A stretch of DNA of 64,000 nt, from assembly GCA_025174535.1 (NCBI GenBank), contig JALBUN010000045.1:496001-560000 (forward strand), given 5' to 3'. The DNA is from Cantharellus purpuraceus (lineage: Eukaryota > Basidiomycota > Agaricomycetes > Cantharellales > Hydnaceae). The notes below the pieces were generated by a model. It had not been told where the DNA came from. It searched no databases and was given only the letters and a program-made list of their open reading frames with translations. Numbering within the stretch: the first letter of the stretch is position 1; each line of letters begins with the position of its first letter. The translations under genes and the position numbers were made by a program. This document shows, piece after piece, positions 10,201-64,000 of the stretch.

Positions 10201-11519
10201 TATTGTAACTATCAACAAGACAACTGGGCTGATCTACTTCTGATCACAGAGTTTGCCTACAACAATGCTCCAAACATGACTACTGGCATCTCTCCATTCT
10301 TCGCTAATAAAGGCTACCATCCGAACATCTCCGTCAACCCTGAGAAAGAACTTGCCTCCACCAAAGCCCACCAATTTGTAACCGACCTTGATCAACTACA
10401 CCAACATCTCTGAGAGACCATCTCCGATGCTCAGAAACAATATCAAGTCTCCGCAGACCGATGCTGCATTCTGGCTCCAGACCTGCAAATCGGAGACAAA
10501 GTATTCGTTAAGACGCTTGTTCGGAATCATGTCAGTATACAATATTCTGATGTATATGAGATATACATCAGAATTTCAATGATACATAAAGCCAGGGAGT
10601 TACAATTTGGATATCTTAAAAGATTTCGGATGTGTGAAATTTTCATAAATATAAACATATATTCTATATTTTAATAAACTTTTAAAGATAAGACATTTGG
10701 TTGAGATGAACATAATTATTTACATGGATATAATAGGAATGTATGTATTAATATAATTGGTATTATATAGGGTATTTAGATATACAAATACCAGGTGGGG
10801 ATTAAAGATAGTTCAAATTATGTTATAAGTATTGTATAAGAAAGAATCAATGATATTTGGATGTTCCTTCAAGAGAGTTGCCACCACTAAATCAGGAAAA
10901 AAAGAATTATTTTTGAGAATTATGCCAAAATATCAAAATATGTTTTAATCTAGTATATTGTGTAAAATTTGAGAATCATGTTGAAATATGAAAATAAGTT
11001 TGAATTGAAGTGTATTGTATAAAATTTGAGGAAAATAGGTTGTACATACGTATTTGTTGTATTTCTGAATAAGCGTCTAAGGCCAAACACTTCCGGACCA
11101 CCCATCCATCGAAGAAACTCTCTGAGAAATACTTAGGTCCTTATGAGGTCATTGCTCGCGCAGGCAGCAGGTCTTTCACCCTCCGCCTCCCGGACCACTT
11201 CTGAGCAGTTCATCTGGTCTTCCACATATCAATGCTCAAACCTGCTACCACAAACAGGATCTCCAGTCGCATGCAACCCCCACCCCCCCCGATCATCATC
11301 AAAGGAGACAATGAATATGAGATATCCAAGATCCTGGACTCAAAGATCGACCATCAATACAAGTGCAAGCTCCAGTACTTAGTCAAATGGACTGGGTACA
11401 AAGGCACCGACGAAGAGTCCTCATGGATCTCCGCGTCTGAACTTGATCATGCATCCGAATCTGTCTCCGACTTCCACTCCGCTTATCCAGACAAACCTGG
11501 CCCTCTTATGAATCTTTAA
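7293..11519 (+). pseudogene. pol: pol of A1: protease, RT, RNase H, integrase, chromodomain
   Basis: Pol lies in the +1 frame relative to gag, with an overlap of about 60 nt containing CCAAAAAAATAG. Visible domains: aspartic protease active site IDSGSTHCF (about 7484); RT from [16 protein letters not shown] (8070) through [12 protein letters not shown] and the catalytic YLDDILVYS (8578-8604); RNase H start LLETDTSNYA (8980); integrase zinc finger and core (HDHPISGHFGQNR at 9675, CTTCMRS, SMDFIEKLP, GYHPEGDGQTERMNQ); and a C-terminal chromodomain (LQYLVKWTGYKGTDEESSW, about 11,375-11,440), which in this family directs integration to chromatin. TGA stops at 8366, 9311 and 10411 read CAA or CGA in A2. 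Element G interrupts the integrase tail at 10513-11076. Confidence 0.88.
10513..11076 (+). mobile_element. G1: AT-rich MITE-like element with terminal inverted repeats
   Basis: Starts ACGCTTGTTCGGAATC and ends TTCTGAATAAGCGT, so the termini are inverted repeats. It is 564 bp with no coding capacity. Close to one end is a 14-bp-arm palindrome (ATTCTGATGTATAT-GAG-ATATACATCAGAAT). The flanks are TTAAG/CTAAG. Four further copies have better 5-bp duplications: CATAG, CTATG and CCTTG. I did not assign a DNA transposon superfamily. Confidence 0.75.
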
Positions 11520-39830: not shown

Positions 39831-40003
39831 CTATCACAACGGCTCAGAGCTACTCTCATTGACCGTGCATGGACATGGTCGGGACACGAGGCAAGAAGGG
39901 TGAATGAGGGTGCAACGAGGCGTCTGCTTAATAAAAAACCTTTTCTTCTTCTCCCAAACTTATCTGCTTTGTCCAGGATTGAATTCTGGATAGCCCGCCC
40001 CCC

Positions 40004-40933
40004 ATGCCTAGACGGTACCACTCCTCCTACGCAGATGTTACGCCGCTCACCCCCGATCGAATCCCGGATAGCCCGCCCCCCATGACTCCTCCACCGTCCA
40101 ACCCTTTCGACGCAGTTGTCACGCCGCTCACCTCCGATCCAATCCTGGATAGCCCGGCCCCCATGCCTCCTTCACCGTTCGACTCCTCCGACGCAGATGT
40201 CACGCTGCGCACCTCTTATGGGACAATATTCAAGGTCTATTCCCGTATCCTCGTCATTGCGTCTCCTGTCTTCCAGGAAATGCTCGAGCTTCCCAGGGAG
40301 GATGCATCCATCAATGTCCCCGAAAGCGGAAAGATCATGAACATATTGCTCAGTTTCATCTACCCCATCGAGGACCCACCCATTGAGACATTATCGCTCC
40401 TAAGTGATGTGCTCCTTGCGGCCTTGAAATACCATATGCGGTCGGTTTCCAAGAGTCTGCGGCGGTTGCTTGTCTCCCCCAAGTTTGTGGAGGAGGAGCC
40501 GATCAGGGTGTATGCAATCGCATGTCGACATGGCCTCGATGAGGAGGCCAAGACGGCGTCTTCTCACGCTCTCGCCATCAACGTGTTTGAATCCCCGCCT
40601 GTGGATGAACTCAAGCTGATCACGGGTTATGATTACTGTCGTTTGGTGACTCTCCATTGGACGCGTAGTGAGGCGGCACGGAATCTACTTGTAGAGGTGG
40701 CCCGATCATGCCCGTCATGTCATTACGGGAGTACGGAGTCGATGGATCACTGGGTATCTCGGGCGAAGGAAGAACTGCAGCTGAGACCCACGTCAGCCGT
40801 GATATTTTCTATGCCCTTCCTAGCGGCGTCGTCACATGTGCAGTGTGGCAGCTGCAGTGCCGGGATTCTAAATGCCTATGATTGTCTTTTGGAATTGAAG
40901 AGGCGCATTGATGAACTTCCCTCCACTGTTTAG
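40004..40933 (+). CDS. BTB/POZ domain protein, copy 1
   Basis: 309 codons, single exon, from MPRRYHSSYADVTPL. The N-terminus consists of about three degenerate repeats of VTPLTSDPILDSPAPM type, encoded by a 90-bp DNA repeat. The BTB fold follows: DADVTLRTSYGTIFKVYSRI, LVIASPVFQEMLELP, GKIMNILLSFIYPIED, LLSDVLLAALKYHM. A helical C-terminal region (LLVSPKFVEEEPIRVYAIAC and TRSEAARNLLVEVARSC) is typical of the large basidiomycete BTB families. The usual SDG turn is SYG here (GAT to TAT), while copy 2 has SDG. Such proteins dimerise and often act as adaptors, but no partner can be inferred. Confidence 0.85.
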   Translation: MPRRYHSSYADVTPLTPDRIPDSPPPMTPPPSNPFDAVVTPLTSDPILDSPAPMPPSPFDSSDADVTLRTSYGTIFKVYSRILVIASPVFQEMLELPREDASINVPESGKIMNILLSFIYPIEDPPIETLSLLSDVLLAALKYHMRSVSKSLRRLLVSPKFVEEEPIRVYAIACRHGLDEEAKTASSHALAINVFESPPVDELKLITGYDYCRLVTLHWTRSEAARNLLVEVARSCPSCHYGSTESMDHWVSRAKEELQLRPTSAVIFSMPFLAASSHVQCGSCSAGILNAYDCLLELKRRIDELPSTV

Positions 40934-46080: not shown

Positions 46081-46283
46081 CTTGTGTAGTGGCCATGTTG
46101 TGCCTATCACAACTGCCTAGAGCTACTCTCGGTGACCGTGTGTGGACGTGGTCGGGACACGAGACAAGAAGGGTGAATGAGGGTGCAACGAGGCGTCTGC
46201 TTAATATTGAAAAACTGGGAATCCAGAGCCCCTTTTCTTCTTCTCCCCAACTTATCTGCTTTGCCCAGGATTGACCGACCCCC

Positions 46284-47330
46284 ATGACTCCTCCACCGTC
46301 CCACGATTTCGACGCAGCTGTCACGCCGCTCACCTCCGATCCAATCCTGGATAGCCCGGCCCCCATGCCTCCTTCACCGTTCGACTCCTCCGACGCAGAT
46401 GTCACGCTGCGCACCTCTGATGGGACAATATTCAAGGTCTATTCCCGTATCCTCGTCATTGCGTCTCCTGTCTTCCAGGAAATGCTCGAGCTTCCCAGGG
46501 AGGATGCATCCATCAATGTCCCCGAAAGCGGCGAGATCATGTACATATTGCTCAGTTTCATTTACCCCATCGAGGACTCACCCATTGAGACATTATCGCT
46601 CCTAAGTGATATGCTCCTTGCTGAAATACCATTTGCGGTCGGTTTCCAAGAGTCTGCGGCGGTTGCTTGTCTCTCCCAAGTTTGTGGAGGAGGAGCCGAT
46701 CAGGGTGTATGCAATCGCATGTCGACATGGCCTCGATGAGGAGGCCAAGACGGCGTCTTCTCACGCTCTCGCCATCAACGTGTTTGAATCCCCGCCTGTG
46801 GATGAACTCAAGCTGATCACGGGTTATGATTACTGTCGTTTGGTGACTCTCCATTGGACGCGTAGTGAGGCGGCACGGAATCTACTTGTGGAGGTGACGT
46901 CCAATTTTCGATCATGCTTGTTGTGTTCTTACGGGAATGCGGAGTGGCTGAATCACTGGGTACTCCGGGCGAAGGAGGAACTGCAGCTGAGACCCACGTC
47001 AGCCGTGATATTTTCTATGCCCTTCCTAGCGGCATCGTCACACGTGCAGTGTAGGCACTGCGAGGCCAGGATTCTAAATGCCTATGATTACCTTTTGGAA
47101 TTGAAGAGGCGCGTTGATGAAATCCCTCTGTTTAGGAAGTGCAGCAGCACAATTCCGTCCCATCCCCGCGCACGAACCCAAGTCCCTGCTTTATTCCGTT
47201 GTTGTGTACCATCTCTTGTCATATACCATTCCTTTCTAATCAACAGCATGTTGTCGTCTTCTTGGTTGACAGCATCTTGCCACATGTGGTTAACGGCCAT
47301 GATCTCCAAGTCACGCATTTTGACGGTTTA
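46284..47330 (+). pseudogene. BTB/POZ domain protein, copy 2, frameshifted
   Basis: Begins MTPPPSHDFDAAVTPLTSDP with one repeat fewer than copy 1. The BTB core is SDADVTLRTSDGTIFKVYSR to SLLSDMLLA. A 5-nt deletion at about 46,621 (CTTGCTGAAATACC against CTTGCGGCCTTGAAATACC) shifts the frame. The rest, LKYHLRSVSKSLRRLLVSPK to LLELKRRVDEIP, continues in the other frame. The native stop is also lost. Confidence 0.85.
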
Positions 47331-47344
47331 TATCTGAGGGCGAG

Positions 47345-49460: not shown

Positions 49461-50107
49461 GGAATGAGAATCCTTGACACTTCCAATGCTAATTCTGATG
49501 TGGAAGATCAGTCAAAGATTTCCATGTGGTATCACCACACAGCTGCACAAGGCTTGTCCCCACTGTTTCCACCCCCAACTCCCTGAGAGAGAAAGAAACT
49601 CAATTAAGGTGCTTGAAGTGCTGGTGTGTTTATGGTACACTGTTACTGTTACATGAACCGAGATAAAGCCAGGACCATTGACCATGAGGCATCATTGTAG
49701 ATTAGGTGAAATTGGGGTAGTAGAAAGCATGAAATAGATATGCCAATTCAATGGCTGATGATGCTGTTCTAAACCTATCACCCTTAGGGGTTGTTTGCAC
49801 CCTGGGTTTATTCCTCTTGCTGCATAGGGATCTTGTGCCTGGTTCTCCAGGTGTAGTCAAAACCCCCAATGCAGGGAGCTCATGTGACTGCTATATAGGG
49901 ATAGTAACTATGTGGTGGGTGATGGGGTCAGATTATAGGGGTGGGTGTGATGTTGGTGCCTGGCTGGGTTGAGTTGAGGTTACTTTTTCAGATCAACTGG
50001 AGTCTGTTGCTGGGGAGGCACAAAGCAGGGTGGGGTGCCCCTTGATGGATCAGCATAAAGCTGGTGGGTGAGCTGGAAGCATGTGATTCTGTGCATTAGG
50101 GTCTATG
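49461..50107. other. unassigned CpG-depleted sequence
   Basis: Almost no CG: I find one in 49,001-50,000, near 49,658. No domain recognised. The plus frame at 49751-49972 has no family resemblance. Confidence 0.4.
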
Positions 50108-50160
50108 TGTTATGACCATATTCATTAATGCCCAGATCCCCATGCAAATGAAATCTATAG

Positions 50161-51284
50161 ATGCTTGTTCAAAATAATGCTGTTATACAATATTCTGATG
50201 TATGAGATGTACATCAGAATTTTAATAATGATAATAAAAATAGGGAGTTACAATCTGGATATCTTTAAAGATTTCAGATATCCAAATTTTTTTTGGATAT
50301 CTTAAATTTTTATAAATATAAATATATATTTTATATTTTAATAAACTTTAAAAGATAAGATGTTTGTTATGGATGAATATAATTATTTATATGAATATAA
50401 CAGTAATGTATATATTAATATTATTGGTATAATATAGAATATTTAGATATACAAATACCAGGTGAGGATTCAAGGTACATTAGATTATTTGACCAGTATA
50501 GTATAAGAAAGAATTGTTATGACTATATTCATTAACACCCAGATCCCTGTGCACATGAAATCTATACTCCATTTGGAAACCATTACATCTCTATTTAGTC
50601 TGTCCAATTGTCACCATTGATCTCACTCATCTGCCTCCAGTTCCAATTGATGCATCAGCATCACTATAGAAACCCAGACATTCATTCCCATCAGACTCAG
50701 ACATATTCACATAAGGCTATCAGCCTCAGAGACCCATCACCAGAGTAATTATTATCAGATTTCAAATATGTATTTAAGTTGCCTGATTGGGGACTTCATT
50801 CCCCAGTTTGAATCATGCCTAGCTCCTAAGTCTGATCTAAACTGTCTAAGTCATACTCCATCTCCAAAATCTTGGACATAGGTATTAGTGAGGGTGCAGC
50901 ATATAAGCTGAAGCCAAGTCCGTTCTGACCCCCACAATGCACCCTGATCCCCACTCTGACTCCAACCCAAGCTCTGACCCAAGCTCTGACCCCCAATCGG
51001 ACCTAGTGCATAACAAGAATGAGTGAAAGAAATTAAGTGTAGCAGGAGTAGAATATTCCCTTGAAGCAGTTGCCACCAGTAAATGAAAAAAAATAAAAAT
51101 AAACAATTATTTTTGAGGATCATGTCATGTCAAAATATCAAAATATGTTTTCTAAGTAAATTATATAAAAGTTGAGAATCATGTCATGTCAAAATATCAA
51201 AATATGTTTTAATATAAGTATATTATGTAAAAATTTGAGGAAATGGGTTGTATATACATATTTGATGTATTTCTGAACAAGTGT
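50161..51284 (+). mobile_element. G4: MITE-like element, split by a solo LTR
   Basis: ATGCTTGTTC to CTGAACAAGTGT. Flanks TATAG/CATAC are a poor duplication, presumably mutated. A solo family A LTR (50515-51015) sits inside. Confidence 0.65.
50515..51015 (+). repeat. solo family A LTR inside G4
   Basis: TGTTATGACTATATTC to GTGCATAACA, flanked by AGAAT on both sides. The same target word as the solo LTR in G3 (30272-30822), at the corresponding kind of AT-rich site. Confidence 0.85.
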
Positions 51285-60335: not shown

Positions 60336-62616
60336 GGCAACACCACCACATCCAGTTCCAGCCAGAATAACTCTGGTTCCAGCAATAACTCCAGAGTTTG
60401 TAAGGGTGCTCTGGACCTCTCCACCAAACTGGGTAAGGATGGCAAACTTACCCAACAGGAACATCAGCACCACATGGACAACAATCTCTGTTTATTCTGT
60501 GGAAAGGCTGGTCACCAAGCCAAGGATTGCAACAAGGCAACTTTGTCTGCTTCAAAAGTGAAGGCCTGTGCTGCCAATGCTATGGAGGACAAGTTCCTAT
60601 GCCAAGGCAACAGACTCAAAAAAAGATAAGCAGTCCTCTAGCCTCTGCATGGGCCAAGGGCTGTATTGGTACTCTCCATGCAATAAATGTGGTCCACCTG
60701 AATGCATCTGCTCTCTCTCACTCCAACTCTCTCACCCTCCTCATCCACTCTGACTCCATTTCCAATACTGCTATTCAAGTCTGGTTCTACTCACTGTTTC
60801 CTTGATTCCCACTTTTCCAATCTACATAAACTCTATACATACACCATAACTCCAATTCTGCCGATTATTTGATGGCACTACTAATGCTGTTATTTTGTGA
60901 ACTATAGATCTGTCTATCCATTTTTCTGTTGGAGAAATCCAGACCATTACATTCTATGTTACTCTGCTTGATTCCAGCTGTGCTGTGGTTCTCAGACACA
61001 ATTGGCTCACCTGCTACAATCTGTTGATTGACTGGGCATTGGGTCATATCACCTTCTGCTCTCCAGTACAGGCTGTGTCATCCTTGATGTCACCAGCAAC
61101 TCTAGGTGCAAAATCATCTTCCACCTCTGCTCCAATAGATACTCCATCTACCCCTCCATCTATATCAATAGTGGACGCTATGGTCTTCACCAGACTAAGC
61201 AAACTGGATGGATCACAAACATTCCAGGTTCACCTTGCCAATCCAATTCTTCTTGCCACTTGCTCTGCTCAATCAGCTCCACTGGACCTATCTATGAGGA
61301 ATACCACAAGTTCACCAATGTGTTCAGCAAGTCCAAAGCTGACTATCTAGCAGAACACTGACTGTACAATCTCAAGATTAAGTTGGATGACAACTCTATC
61401 CCTCCACTTGGCCCTATCTACTCTTTCTCCCAAAAAGAGCTACTGGCTCTCTAAACATTCATAGACAAAAGCTTGGCTACAGGCTTCATCTGCCCATTCC
61501 TATCCCCCCATGGGGCTCTGGTCTTATTTGTCCACAAGACAGATCACTCCACTTATATGTTGATTTCCATGGACTCAACAAAATCACCAAGAAAGACCAG
61601 TAACCAATACCCCATACCACAGACATGCTTAAGAGTCTGCAAAGCTAAGATCTATTCCAAAATAGATCTCTGACATACCTATCATCTAGTCTGTATCCAA
61701 GAAGGTGATGAGTGGAAAATGACCTTCTGCACTCAATATGGGTCTTTTGAATAGTGTGTCATTGTTACGCACTAGGTCTGATTGGGGGTCAGAGATTGGG
61801 TTGGAGTTGGAGTGGGAATTGGGGTGCATTGTGGGGGTTGGAACGGACTTGGCTTCAGCTTATGTGCTGCGCCCTCACTAATACCAGTGTCTGAGATTTT
61901 GGAGATGGAGTACGACTTAGATAGTTAGGATTGGACTTAGGAACTAGGCATGATTCAATATTTGAACTGGGGAATGAAGTCCCCAGTTGGGCAACTTAAA
62001 TACATATTTGAAATCTAATAATAATTACTCTGGTGATAGGTCTCCAAGGCTGGTGGCCTTACATGAATATGTCCAAGTCTGATGGAGATGGATGTCTGGG
62101 TTCCTATGGTGATGCTGATGCATCAATTGGAATCAGACAGATAAATGGAGACGTGATGGTTCCCAAATGGAGTATAGATTTCATATGCATGGGGATCTGA
62201 GTGGATCGGATGGGGATCTGGGTGTTAATGAATATAGTCATAACAGTCATGCCTTTTAGACTAACCAATGCTCTAGCCACCTTCCAGCAGTTCATGAATG
62301 ATACCTTCACTGATCTCCTCAATGTTACCATCCTCGTTTACTTGGATGGCATCTTGGTATATTCAGATAAAGAAGATGAACATTGGACACATGTCTGAGA
62401 GGTACTCTAACATCTCCACCAACATGGCCTATTCACCCATGCTGACAAATGCAAATTCTACTCTGACTCTGTCAAATATCTAGGCTATATCCTCTCCCCT
62501 GCAGGGTTGACAATGTCAAATGACAAAGTGAAAGCCATACAGGAATGGCCAGAACTGCAGAAAGTCAAGGATGTGCAGTCCTTCCTAGGGTTCACCAACT
62601 TCTACTGATGCTTCAT
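60336..62616 (+). pseudogene. A4 gag-pol remnant, split by a solo LTR
   Basis: Zinc knuckle CLFCGKAGHQAKDC (about 60,487-60,528), protease region with the active-site codons partly deleted (about 60,780), linker [13 protein letters not shown], and RT pieces. The catalytic motif is YLDGILVYS (about 62,340) instead of YLDDILVYS, a loss of an essential Asp. Ends at 62616 where the family E element begins, inside FLGFTNFY. Confidence 0.82.
61763..62245 (-). repeat. solo family A LTR inside A4
   Basis: TGTTACGCACTAGG to GTCATAACA, flanked by GTCAT on both sides. Confidence 0.9.
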
Positions 62617-63391
62617 TGCAAGTACCCAAGGTACTTACTTACTATAGTATATAGCTAGATAGTTATAATTAATGTATGCAGCATTCCATTAAGGAATGCT
62701 GTCTTCTTGATAGATATATGCACCCATAGGGTGCATATGTATAGTTATTATGTAAGCCAGTGGACCCAAGTACATGTGTGGGTCCACATATAGTAGACAG
62801 AACTTAGTAACTACCACACTGTACAGCACATCACCCAACCAATACACTTGGTTGAGTTCTGTGCAACGGTGTGAACTGAGACACCCATTAACACTTTTTT
62901 GAACTTCCAAAGGAAGAATCAATTGATTCTTCCTCATTATTGAAGTTTTCTAGTCAATACTAGAAAACTGGCTGTTGTTGGTGTATAGACATATACCAAC
63001 CCCCCCAGTCGCTCATATAAATGAGCAACTAGTAGACTAACTTAGTTAGCCTACAAAGATAGAAGAAAGAAAGGAGTCATCATAATGATGACTCACAGTA
63101 GAGTGAGTTGTGCTGGCAGCACACAGGACATCATAAATGATGAATGGTGGCATGTAGCCAGCAGCAGAAGCTCCCAGGAAGGGGAGCTAGACCCTAGAGA
63201 AGTCACAGGGACTTCTCATAAGGAAGACTCTAGAAGAGAGTCGCCATGATCATGAGACTGCACAGACAATCGCACAATAGACTGTCTGTCGAACAAGAAC
63301 CCTTCATTGAGTGGTTCTCTGATTAGAGAAGAAAGGAGGACAGTCATCCACTGTCTCCAACGTTCCTAAAGGAAAGGAACATGCTCAATAT
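62617..63391 (+). mobile_element. family E LTR element: LTR start and hairpin-dense leader
   Basis: Begins TGCAAGTACCCAAGGTACTT inside A4 RT. The first 120 bp match E fragments at 15874, 29777 and 31004. The following sequence is a chain of short perfect inverted repeats, for example 62716-62738 (ATATGCACCC loop ATA), 62760-62787, 62911-62934 (AGGAAGAATC arms), 62944-62969 (AGTTTTCTAGT arms), 63074-63094 and 63197-63217. The LTR end and primer site could not be fixed. Confidence 0.65.
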
Positions 63392-64000
63392 ATGAGCACA
63401 AGTAGAAGTAGCAATACTTCTACTAGGGAATTGTGCAGCATGGAGCAGCATGAAACCCACAGGTCAATTGCAAGATTGACTGAACAACTCATGTGTAATC
63501 AACATGAGATGAAGAGCATTAGCAAAGCTAGTGCTCAAGCAGCTAAGATGGCTGCTGAAGCAGGGCATGCTGCCACTACTATGGGGCAGCAAATAGCAGA
63601 GTTAGGAACAATGTTAAAATTGCTCGAGAACTCTGAGAGATGCAAGTCACATCACTGAAGATCAGATTCTTGTCAAGAATCTGAATCTGGAGAGTCTGGA
63701 CCCTGCTGGGGTGAGAGGGTCCAACCAAATGATCAGTTAGACAGAGGAAATGAAATTTCCCCAATGGAGGGAATTAGAGACCCAGTAATCCTGGCGAGGC
63801 AAGGATTACCAATCCAGATTGAAGAGGAAACTCTTCAATCTATGGCAAAGGAGCTCTATCAAGAGATTGAGCTATGGAAACAACGAGAAGTTGAGGCTTC
63901 TTGTAAACATAGATTAGCCCTCAAATGGAAGGCTAAACATGCAGAGCAGGAGCTCAGCCAGCTGTTTAGAGAGCAGTGGCCCCAGCAAGAGCTCAATGTG
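63392..64000 (+). CDS. first ORF (gag-like) of the family E element, continues past the window
   Basis: ATG 63392, MSTSRSSNTSTRELCSMEQH, then a helical, Ala/Met/Glu-rich stretch (SAQAAKMAAEAGHAATTMGQ). A TGA at 63656 interrupts the frame, which then stays open to the window end (LPIQIEEETLQSMAKELYQE, then IELWKQREVEASCK). The TGA probably was CGA, as elsewhere in this window. The coiled-coil character and position behind an LTR suggest the N-terminal part of gag, but no zinc knuckle or pol is in view. The hairpin pattern of the leader continues through this coding region. Confidence 0.5.

Follow-up and report, generated by a model that had tools for sequence, protein, structure and literature searches.

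Short Watson–Crick hairpins tile a putative Ty3/Gypsy retrotransposon of Cantharellus purpuraceus and may derive from fold-back copying

The window (the whole stretch of DNA analysed here, 64,000 nucleotides) closes with the 5′ part of a repeated element that is filled with short hairpins. A decayed reverse-transcriptase fragment of another Ty3 element lies at 62201–62616 on the forward strand (Pfam RVT_1, E = 1.3e-07, in the ORF 62201–62398), and the tiled element adjoins this fragment and probably inserted into it. Its 5′ LTR (62617–63055, forward strand) starts with TG and would end with CTACA, and it contains hairpins at 62679–62701 and 62760–62787 (9 bp arms each), at 62716–62738 (10 bp arms; 25 of 29 copies carry the loop ATA, four its inversion TAT) and at 62944–62969 (11 bp arms), as well as a perfect 24-bp palindrome at 62911–62934. 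It is followed on the same strand by a leader (63056–63391), also tiled by hairpins (e.g. 63074–63094 and 63197–63217), and by an ORF piece from the beginning of the gag region (63392–63658), which is tiled (e.g. 63401–63424, 10 bp arms) and gave no Pfam match above the cut-off. A hairpin with 11 bp arms at 63662–63684 precedes a second gag-region ORF piece (63764–64000, forward strand), which is tiled at 63785–63809 and 63816–63841 and is still open at the window end; this copy of the element breaks off beyond the window, near 64219, at the junction with another repeat. Elsewhere in the window, an 81-bp tandem repeat is found twice (39988–40215 and 46268–46421), at or near the related ORFs 40004–40933 and 46606–47337, and homologues of the ORF 40004–40933 carry BTB domains. 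For one host protein encoded in the window, the named homologues belong to Ramaria, Phellopilus, Rickenella and other genera, all three named being agaricomycete fungi.

The sequence from 62617 recurs across the 40.15 Mb genome, with 43 matches obtained from the best 40 of 451 candidates. Domain content and order indicate a decayed Ty3/Gypsy retrotransposon with at least 40 copies and a length of roughly 9 kb, a figure that sums pieces from different copies and does not describe a single assembled copy; the copies are fragmented and nested. Alignments start at the first base of the query (TG) in 25 of 30 copies, and the flanks of the copies are unrelated by eye save for two pairs with common flanks. 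The common left flanks of L009/L010 and of L025/L028 mean that duplicated stretches exist in the assembly. Beyond the point at which the window copy is cut, L035 continues into a capsid-like region that stays under the Pfam cut-off (Ty3_capsid, E = 7.7e-06; it scores 25.9 bits, the cut-off being 29.1, with stops read as X), and then into a zinc knuckle and a protease motif (LDSGSEG), both recognised by eye. L051 encodes reverse transcriptase, RNase H and integrase in this order, as does L036 without part of the reverse transcriptase. The pol domains of L051 pass the cut-off for RT_RNaseH_2 (1.3e-09), RT_RNaseH (5e-06), Integrase_H2C2 (1.1e-07) and SH3_Tf2-1 (1.2e-12), while RVT_1 (1.2e-05 and 0.007) and rve (1e-04) fall below it in short or split pieces; the protease piece of L051 gave no Pfam protease match and DUF7208 alone, under the cut-off. 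The predicted pol order is thus the PR–RT–RH–IN arrangement of Ty3/Gypsy.

Downstream of the integrase we found a chromodomain-like stretch (by eye) and then an additional 3′ ORF (L053, L055). In the protein search a 229-residue piece of this ORF (L055) has two homologues alone, both from JGI sources. LTR sequence appears again directly after a polypurine tract at about position 1303 of L057, L058 aligns across this junction, and both of these 3′ LTRs are cut short; no copy bearing two complete LTRs was observed. Among the 40 scored LTR matches, the four newly examined ones continue into the leader and are neither solo nor 3′ LTRs. A reading of the window copy as a 1.6 kb non-LTR repeat was dropped, as other copies continue past its cut end and an LTR follows the polypurine tract. 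The element shares with the Ty3/Gypsy group (Metaviridae) its gene order, its domains and a polypurine tract beside an LTR that starts with TG, but differs in the hairpin tiling and in the additional 3′ ORF, of which the piece in L051 has no Pfam match.

Perfect arms with loops of at most 12 bases were counted and compared with dinucleotide shuffles. Between 62617 and 63391 there are 23 arms of 6 bp or more against 2.3 in 200 shuffles (maximum 9), 7 arms of 8 bp or more against 0.2 (maximum 2, 200 shuffles), and 6 arms of 9 bp or more against 0.04. Over 62617–64000 the count for arms of 8 bp or more is 12 against 0.28 (100 shuffles), which bears out the initial annotation in its claim of about a dozen such arms beyond chance; shuffled sequence gives no similar hairpin count, and most of the arms are kept in other copies. 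The 1.1 kb directly upstream of 62617 is untiled, though some arms are present (6 against 3.8 for arms of 6 bp or more, 2 against 0.22 for 8 bp or more). From both ends inward, 19 of the 20 stem-loops listed in that annotation pair, with 4–12 contiguous pairs and a single G–U in two of them. The one at 63032–63054 forms 10 of 11 pairs in register but has a mismatch after four pairs, and 63297–63330 does not fold as a single hairpin, with smaller hairpins drawn there by RNAfold. Rfam models gave no match at E up to 1 within 61000–64000.

In the copies examined, the tiling extends from the LTR to the additional 3′ ORF. The density of perfect arms of at least 7 bp is 11.9–13.9 per kb in four segments (the 5′ part, pol from two copies, and the integrase to the 3′ part) against 0.6–0.9 per kb in shuffles of these segments. 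The same count gives 2.0 per kb for phage MS2, 1.9 for Escherichia coli 16S rRNA and 1.4 for 23S rRNA. The assignment to an LTR element made at the outset is supported, and 63056–63391 is indeed tiled, but the label “leader” for the whole stretch 62617–63391 was too narrow: its left end is the LTR, and beyond 63391 the hairpins continue into the ORFs and, outside the window, into the remainder of the element, including gag, pol and the 3′ region. The tiling is uneven, as bins of 250 bases in the element part of L051 hold from 0 to 7 arms. In the segments examined the longest perfect arm is 12 bp, and non-coding and coding parts are similar in this respect (11–12).

Across 349,038 bases, a figure that includes overlapping stretches, arms of 7 bp or more number 11.86 per kb inside DNA homologous to the element and 1.54 per kb outside it. 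Three related Ty3 stretches from the same genome, picked as lower-identity integrase matches and placed without a tree, show no tiling (L061, L062 and L063: 7, 1 and 4 such arms against 3.5, 0.8 and 1.0 in shuffles), with a mild excess in L063; another Ty3 copy, L066, shows none either (1 against 2.25). Two copies that diverge by 14–16% from L051 in the integrase part are tiled. Searches for relatives found none in viral contigs, one weak integrase with 29% identity in other genome contigs (L060, left out), and close relatives with 71–73% protein identity among JGI metagenome proteins. Outside the element, 27 overlapping windows of 400 bases have at least 4 arms, and 21 of these represent, by eye, one AT-rich repeat. 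This repeat, several hundred bases long, carries the strong hairpin CTGATGTATA...TATACATCAG and is found in the window at 10401–10900 and 50001–50600, as well as in L004, L017, L022, L028, L032, L035, L037 and L039. Each of two inserts (L008:2278–3085 and L019:3058–3771) holds 4 arms of at least 7 bp where about 0.7 would be expected; they are possibly further hairpin-rich elements, a suggestive but weak indication.

Within coding sequence, the excess was compared with 200 permutations of synonymous codons in each of six open segments. Arms of 6 bp or more exceed the permutation maximum in five of the segments and equal it in the sixth, and arms of 7 bp or more exceed it in five; the gag piece holds 2 arms of 7 bp or more against a permutation mean of 0.33 and a maximum of 3. 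When 35 coding hairpins are sorted by pairing register they divide into 18, 11 and 6, the rarest register being the one with the least synonymous freedom. The hairpin excess is therefore more than a by-product of coding, and both arms of these inverted repeats lie in coding sequence. CpG decay does not account for it either, since decay breaks pairs, and the earlier claim that neither cause explains the hairpins holds.

The first of two origins proposed in the initial annotation was a structured genomic RNA (for packaging, or for nuclease or RNAi resistance), under which mutations that keep pairs would have been favoured while the element was active. Genome-scale ordered structure in RNA viruses is the class to which such an RNA would be likened. 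Local folding energy lies 14–17 kcal/mol per 150 nt under that of shuffles on the sense strand of five segments and exceeds the gap of 11.8 kcal/mol in MS2 (8 shuffles each for MS2 and element), and hairpins fall on synonymous sites. The element thus resembles MS2 as a coding RNA with strong local folding, but differs from it in arm density and in the lack of a G–U preference. The gain over shuffles is about equal on both strands, a weak argument against RNA selection as MS2 is likewise symmetric. In stems of 9 bp or more with at most two mismatches, A–C mismatches outnumber G–U (188 to 133 in 13 segments, some of them mutually homologous), and among mismatches common to at least 75% of copies and outside CpG there are 32 A–C and 24 G–U, where an RNA under selection should favour G–U. 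Shuffles of the element also yield more A–C than G–U, so the fair claim is that G–U is simply not enriched: the G–U/A–C ratio is 0.37–0.75 in the element and 0.60–0.76 in its shuffles, against 1.4 in MS2 and 2.0 in the rRNAs, a weak control with 29 and 3 mismatches each. One-sided changes among 29 copies split into 247 G–U and 228 A–C cells.

Compensatory change gives a similar picture. Variation among the 29 copies consists mostly of transitions, many of them at CpG. Covariation within the family was rejected as a sign of compensation: many pairs vary independently on both sides with C/T and G/A states, so that two-sided changes are mostly CpG decay. Outside CpG, six double changes end in a Watson–Crick pair and three do not, against 233 one-sided changes, which leaves maintained stems unsupported. 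Two integrase subfamilies differ by 48 fixed differences outside CpG, found in 27 of 791 stem columns, 10 of 136 loop columns and 11 of 280 other columns; stems thus have fewer per column than loops, which speaks for RNA selection, and hardly fewer than other columns. None of the 27 stem pairs with a fixed subfamily difference is fixed on both sides, and the stems were accordingly not kept by compensation during the subfamily split; when two individual copies are compared, both sides differ at 4 of the 27 pairs, and 1 of these 4 ends in a Watson–Crick pair. Differences between a Watson–Crick pair and A–C (11) exceed those between a Watson–Crick pair and G–U (5). The two subfamilies lost Watson–Crick pairs in about equal number (11 and 12). 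This implies more perfect stems in their ancestor and also speaks against a conversion still active at the split. Neither conversion nor selection has kept the stems perfect since the subfamilies separated. As neither G–U tolerance, nor a strand preference, nor clear compensatory change was seen within the family and its two subfamilies, we consider selection on a structured RNA an unlikely origin of the tiling.

Comparison of copies revealed loops exchanged for their exact reverse complement while the stems remained unchanged. Examples are ATA/TAT, within an LTR stem of 10 bp, and AGTA/TACT, within a conserved motif of the integrase. In six alignments (29, 7, 3, 4, 2 and 2 copies) there are 70 distinct multi-base variants outside CpG; all six that lie in loops of stems of at least 5 bp are exact inversions, against 2 of 64 elsewhere (Fisher p = 2e-7, for variants that are not fully independent). 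Under a broader definition, 9 of 181 variants are inversions; the sites are few, 6–9 depending on the definition used. An initial scan of two alignments had returned 16 reverse-complement sites against 2 reverse-only and 1 complement-only, 10 of the 16 being judged CpG look-alikes. The four copies with TAT differ hardly less among themselves (distance 0.037) than from the remaining copies (0.041), a pattern suggestive of recurrent flipping. Together the inversions suggest hairpin formation during copying or recombination of the element's DNA. The 16 distinct deletions of at least 6 bases in the 5′ alignment mostly do not correspond to whole hairpins by eye, save that one of 49 bases removes about two. 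Copies differ mainly by C-to-T and G-to-A changes, and stops, mostly TGA, break up many of the reverse-transcriptase matches, which is what decay of CGA should produce. In the integrase of L064 (alignment columns about 392–402), one stem arm of this single copy has a cluster of A-to-G changes reminiscent of adenosine deamination.

The second origin proposed in the initial annotation, snap-back copying, fits better than RNA structure because multi-base loop changes are exact loop inversions. We infer fold-back switching from these inversions, from the absence of a wobble preference, from strand symmetry, from the similar arm lengths in coding and non-coding sequence, and from related elements that are untiled. 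Under this reading, coding and non-coding sequence alike would have become short Watson–Crick hairpins before the present copies inserted, most likely through the element's own copying: the growing strand or the template may fold back at weak inverted repeats during reverse transcription, and a template switch of about 10 bases would make one arm exactly complementary to its partner, sometimes inverting the loop, a change that is itself observed. Selection on the proteins would have kept only rewrites at synonymous or tolerated positions, as the codon permutations and pairing registers support, and later decay, mainly at CpG, would then have produced the erosion that is seen in the stems. That a past phase of such switching perfected inverted repeats within the limits set by the proteins comes, in our estimate, close to an even prospect. 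Loop inversion fits this account; among the compared copies we identified none in which a stem arm is newly written, and the stems have eroded since the subfamily split. Loop inversion is known for plastid DNA hairpins, which suggests that hairpins form during copying and not that copying made the arms, and here it could have arisen in host DNA once the element had inserted, and not in reverse transcription. No feature that would mark the reverse transcriptase as prone to template switching was noticed.

Selection at the DNA level, for example on folding of single-stranded cDNA or on cruciforms that aid integration or escape from homology sensing, would agree with strand symmetry, with the absence of a wobble preference and with short loops, as 80 of 87 hairpins with arms of 8 bp or more have a loop of at most 11 bases when loops of up to 25 are allowed. 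Against it, stems are not kept between the subfamilies, and for cruciforms an arm length of about 10 bp is short. We know of no selective agent for such hairpins, and consider this origin improbable. A mutational process acting on all of the fungal DNA, such as error-prone replication with template switching, could draw on loop inversions and perfect stems as products that the available text of PMC8794818 ascribes to replication template switching. The low arm density outside the element, together with the three related Ty3 stretches and the other Ty3 copy that are untiled, largely refutes this process unless the family entered from another host, and leaves it with a very small probability. 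As origins of the tiling, chance, base composition, decay at CpG and side effects of coding can be dismissed with near certainty, as the shuffle and codon controls refute them and decay breaks pairs; no point in their favour was found, and the look-alike inversions that decay does create (CACA/TGTG) were set aside.

For fold-back switching, related phenomena exist. Template-switch mutations and plastid loop inversions are scattered events in cellular or plastid DNA. They resemble the present case in that loops are inverted and perfect stems are explained by copying, as argued for such stems in the available text of PMC8794818, but here one mobile element is tiled. The nearest precedent is found in the mitochondrial genomes of hairworms (Nematomorpha), where, as far as the available text of Mikhailov et al. 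2019 (PMC6649704) and Nikolaeva et al. 2023 (PMC10380579) describes them, perfect inverted repeats lie inside coding sequence. These palindromes reach 284 bp, two species have 55 and 60 repeats longer than 10 bp, in one case within a genome of 14,013 bp, and several genes are without repeats (PMC6649704, PMC10380579, same text). A phase bias of the coding palindromes is discussed in the text available from PMC6649704, and the authors propose repeat conversion or template switching. To the extent of these sources, both systems have coding inverted repeats with unequal pairing phases and make use of code degeneracy; the hairworm palindromes are mitochondrial and have long arms of tens to hundreds of bp, whereas the arms described here are at most 12 bp, lie in a nuclear LTR retrotransposon, cover LTR, leader and coding sequence, and come with loop inversions. 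We found no retroelement tiled with Watson–Crick hairpins in coding and non-coding sequence in the open-access literature, which does not prove that none has been published.

If it stands, the finding would set beside the unexplained hairworm mitochondrial palindromes a nuclear case that is present in many copies, dozens of which allow mutation to be followed. It would also make it testable whether errors of copying, and not selection for structure, give rise to perfect genomic stems. It is possible, though we hold it with more doubt than confidence, that this is a lineage whose own reverse transcription drives self-complementarity, rounds of copying perfecting the repeats and flipping the loops. 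Were this true, its genome would be turned into a succession of hairpins, checked only by the tolerance of its proteins, the outcome of a self-imposed mutational drive and not of adaptation.
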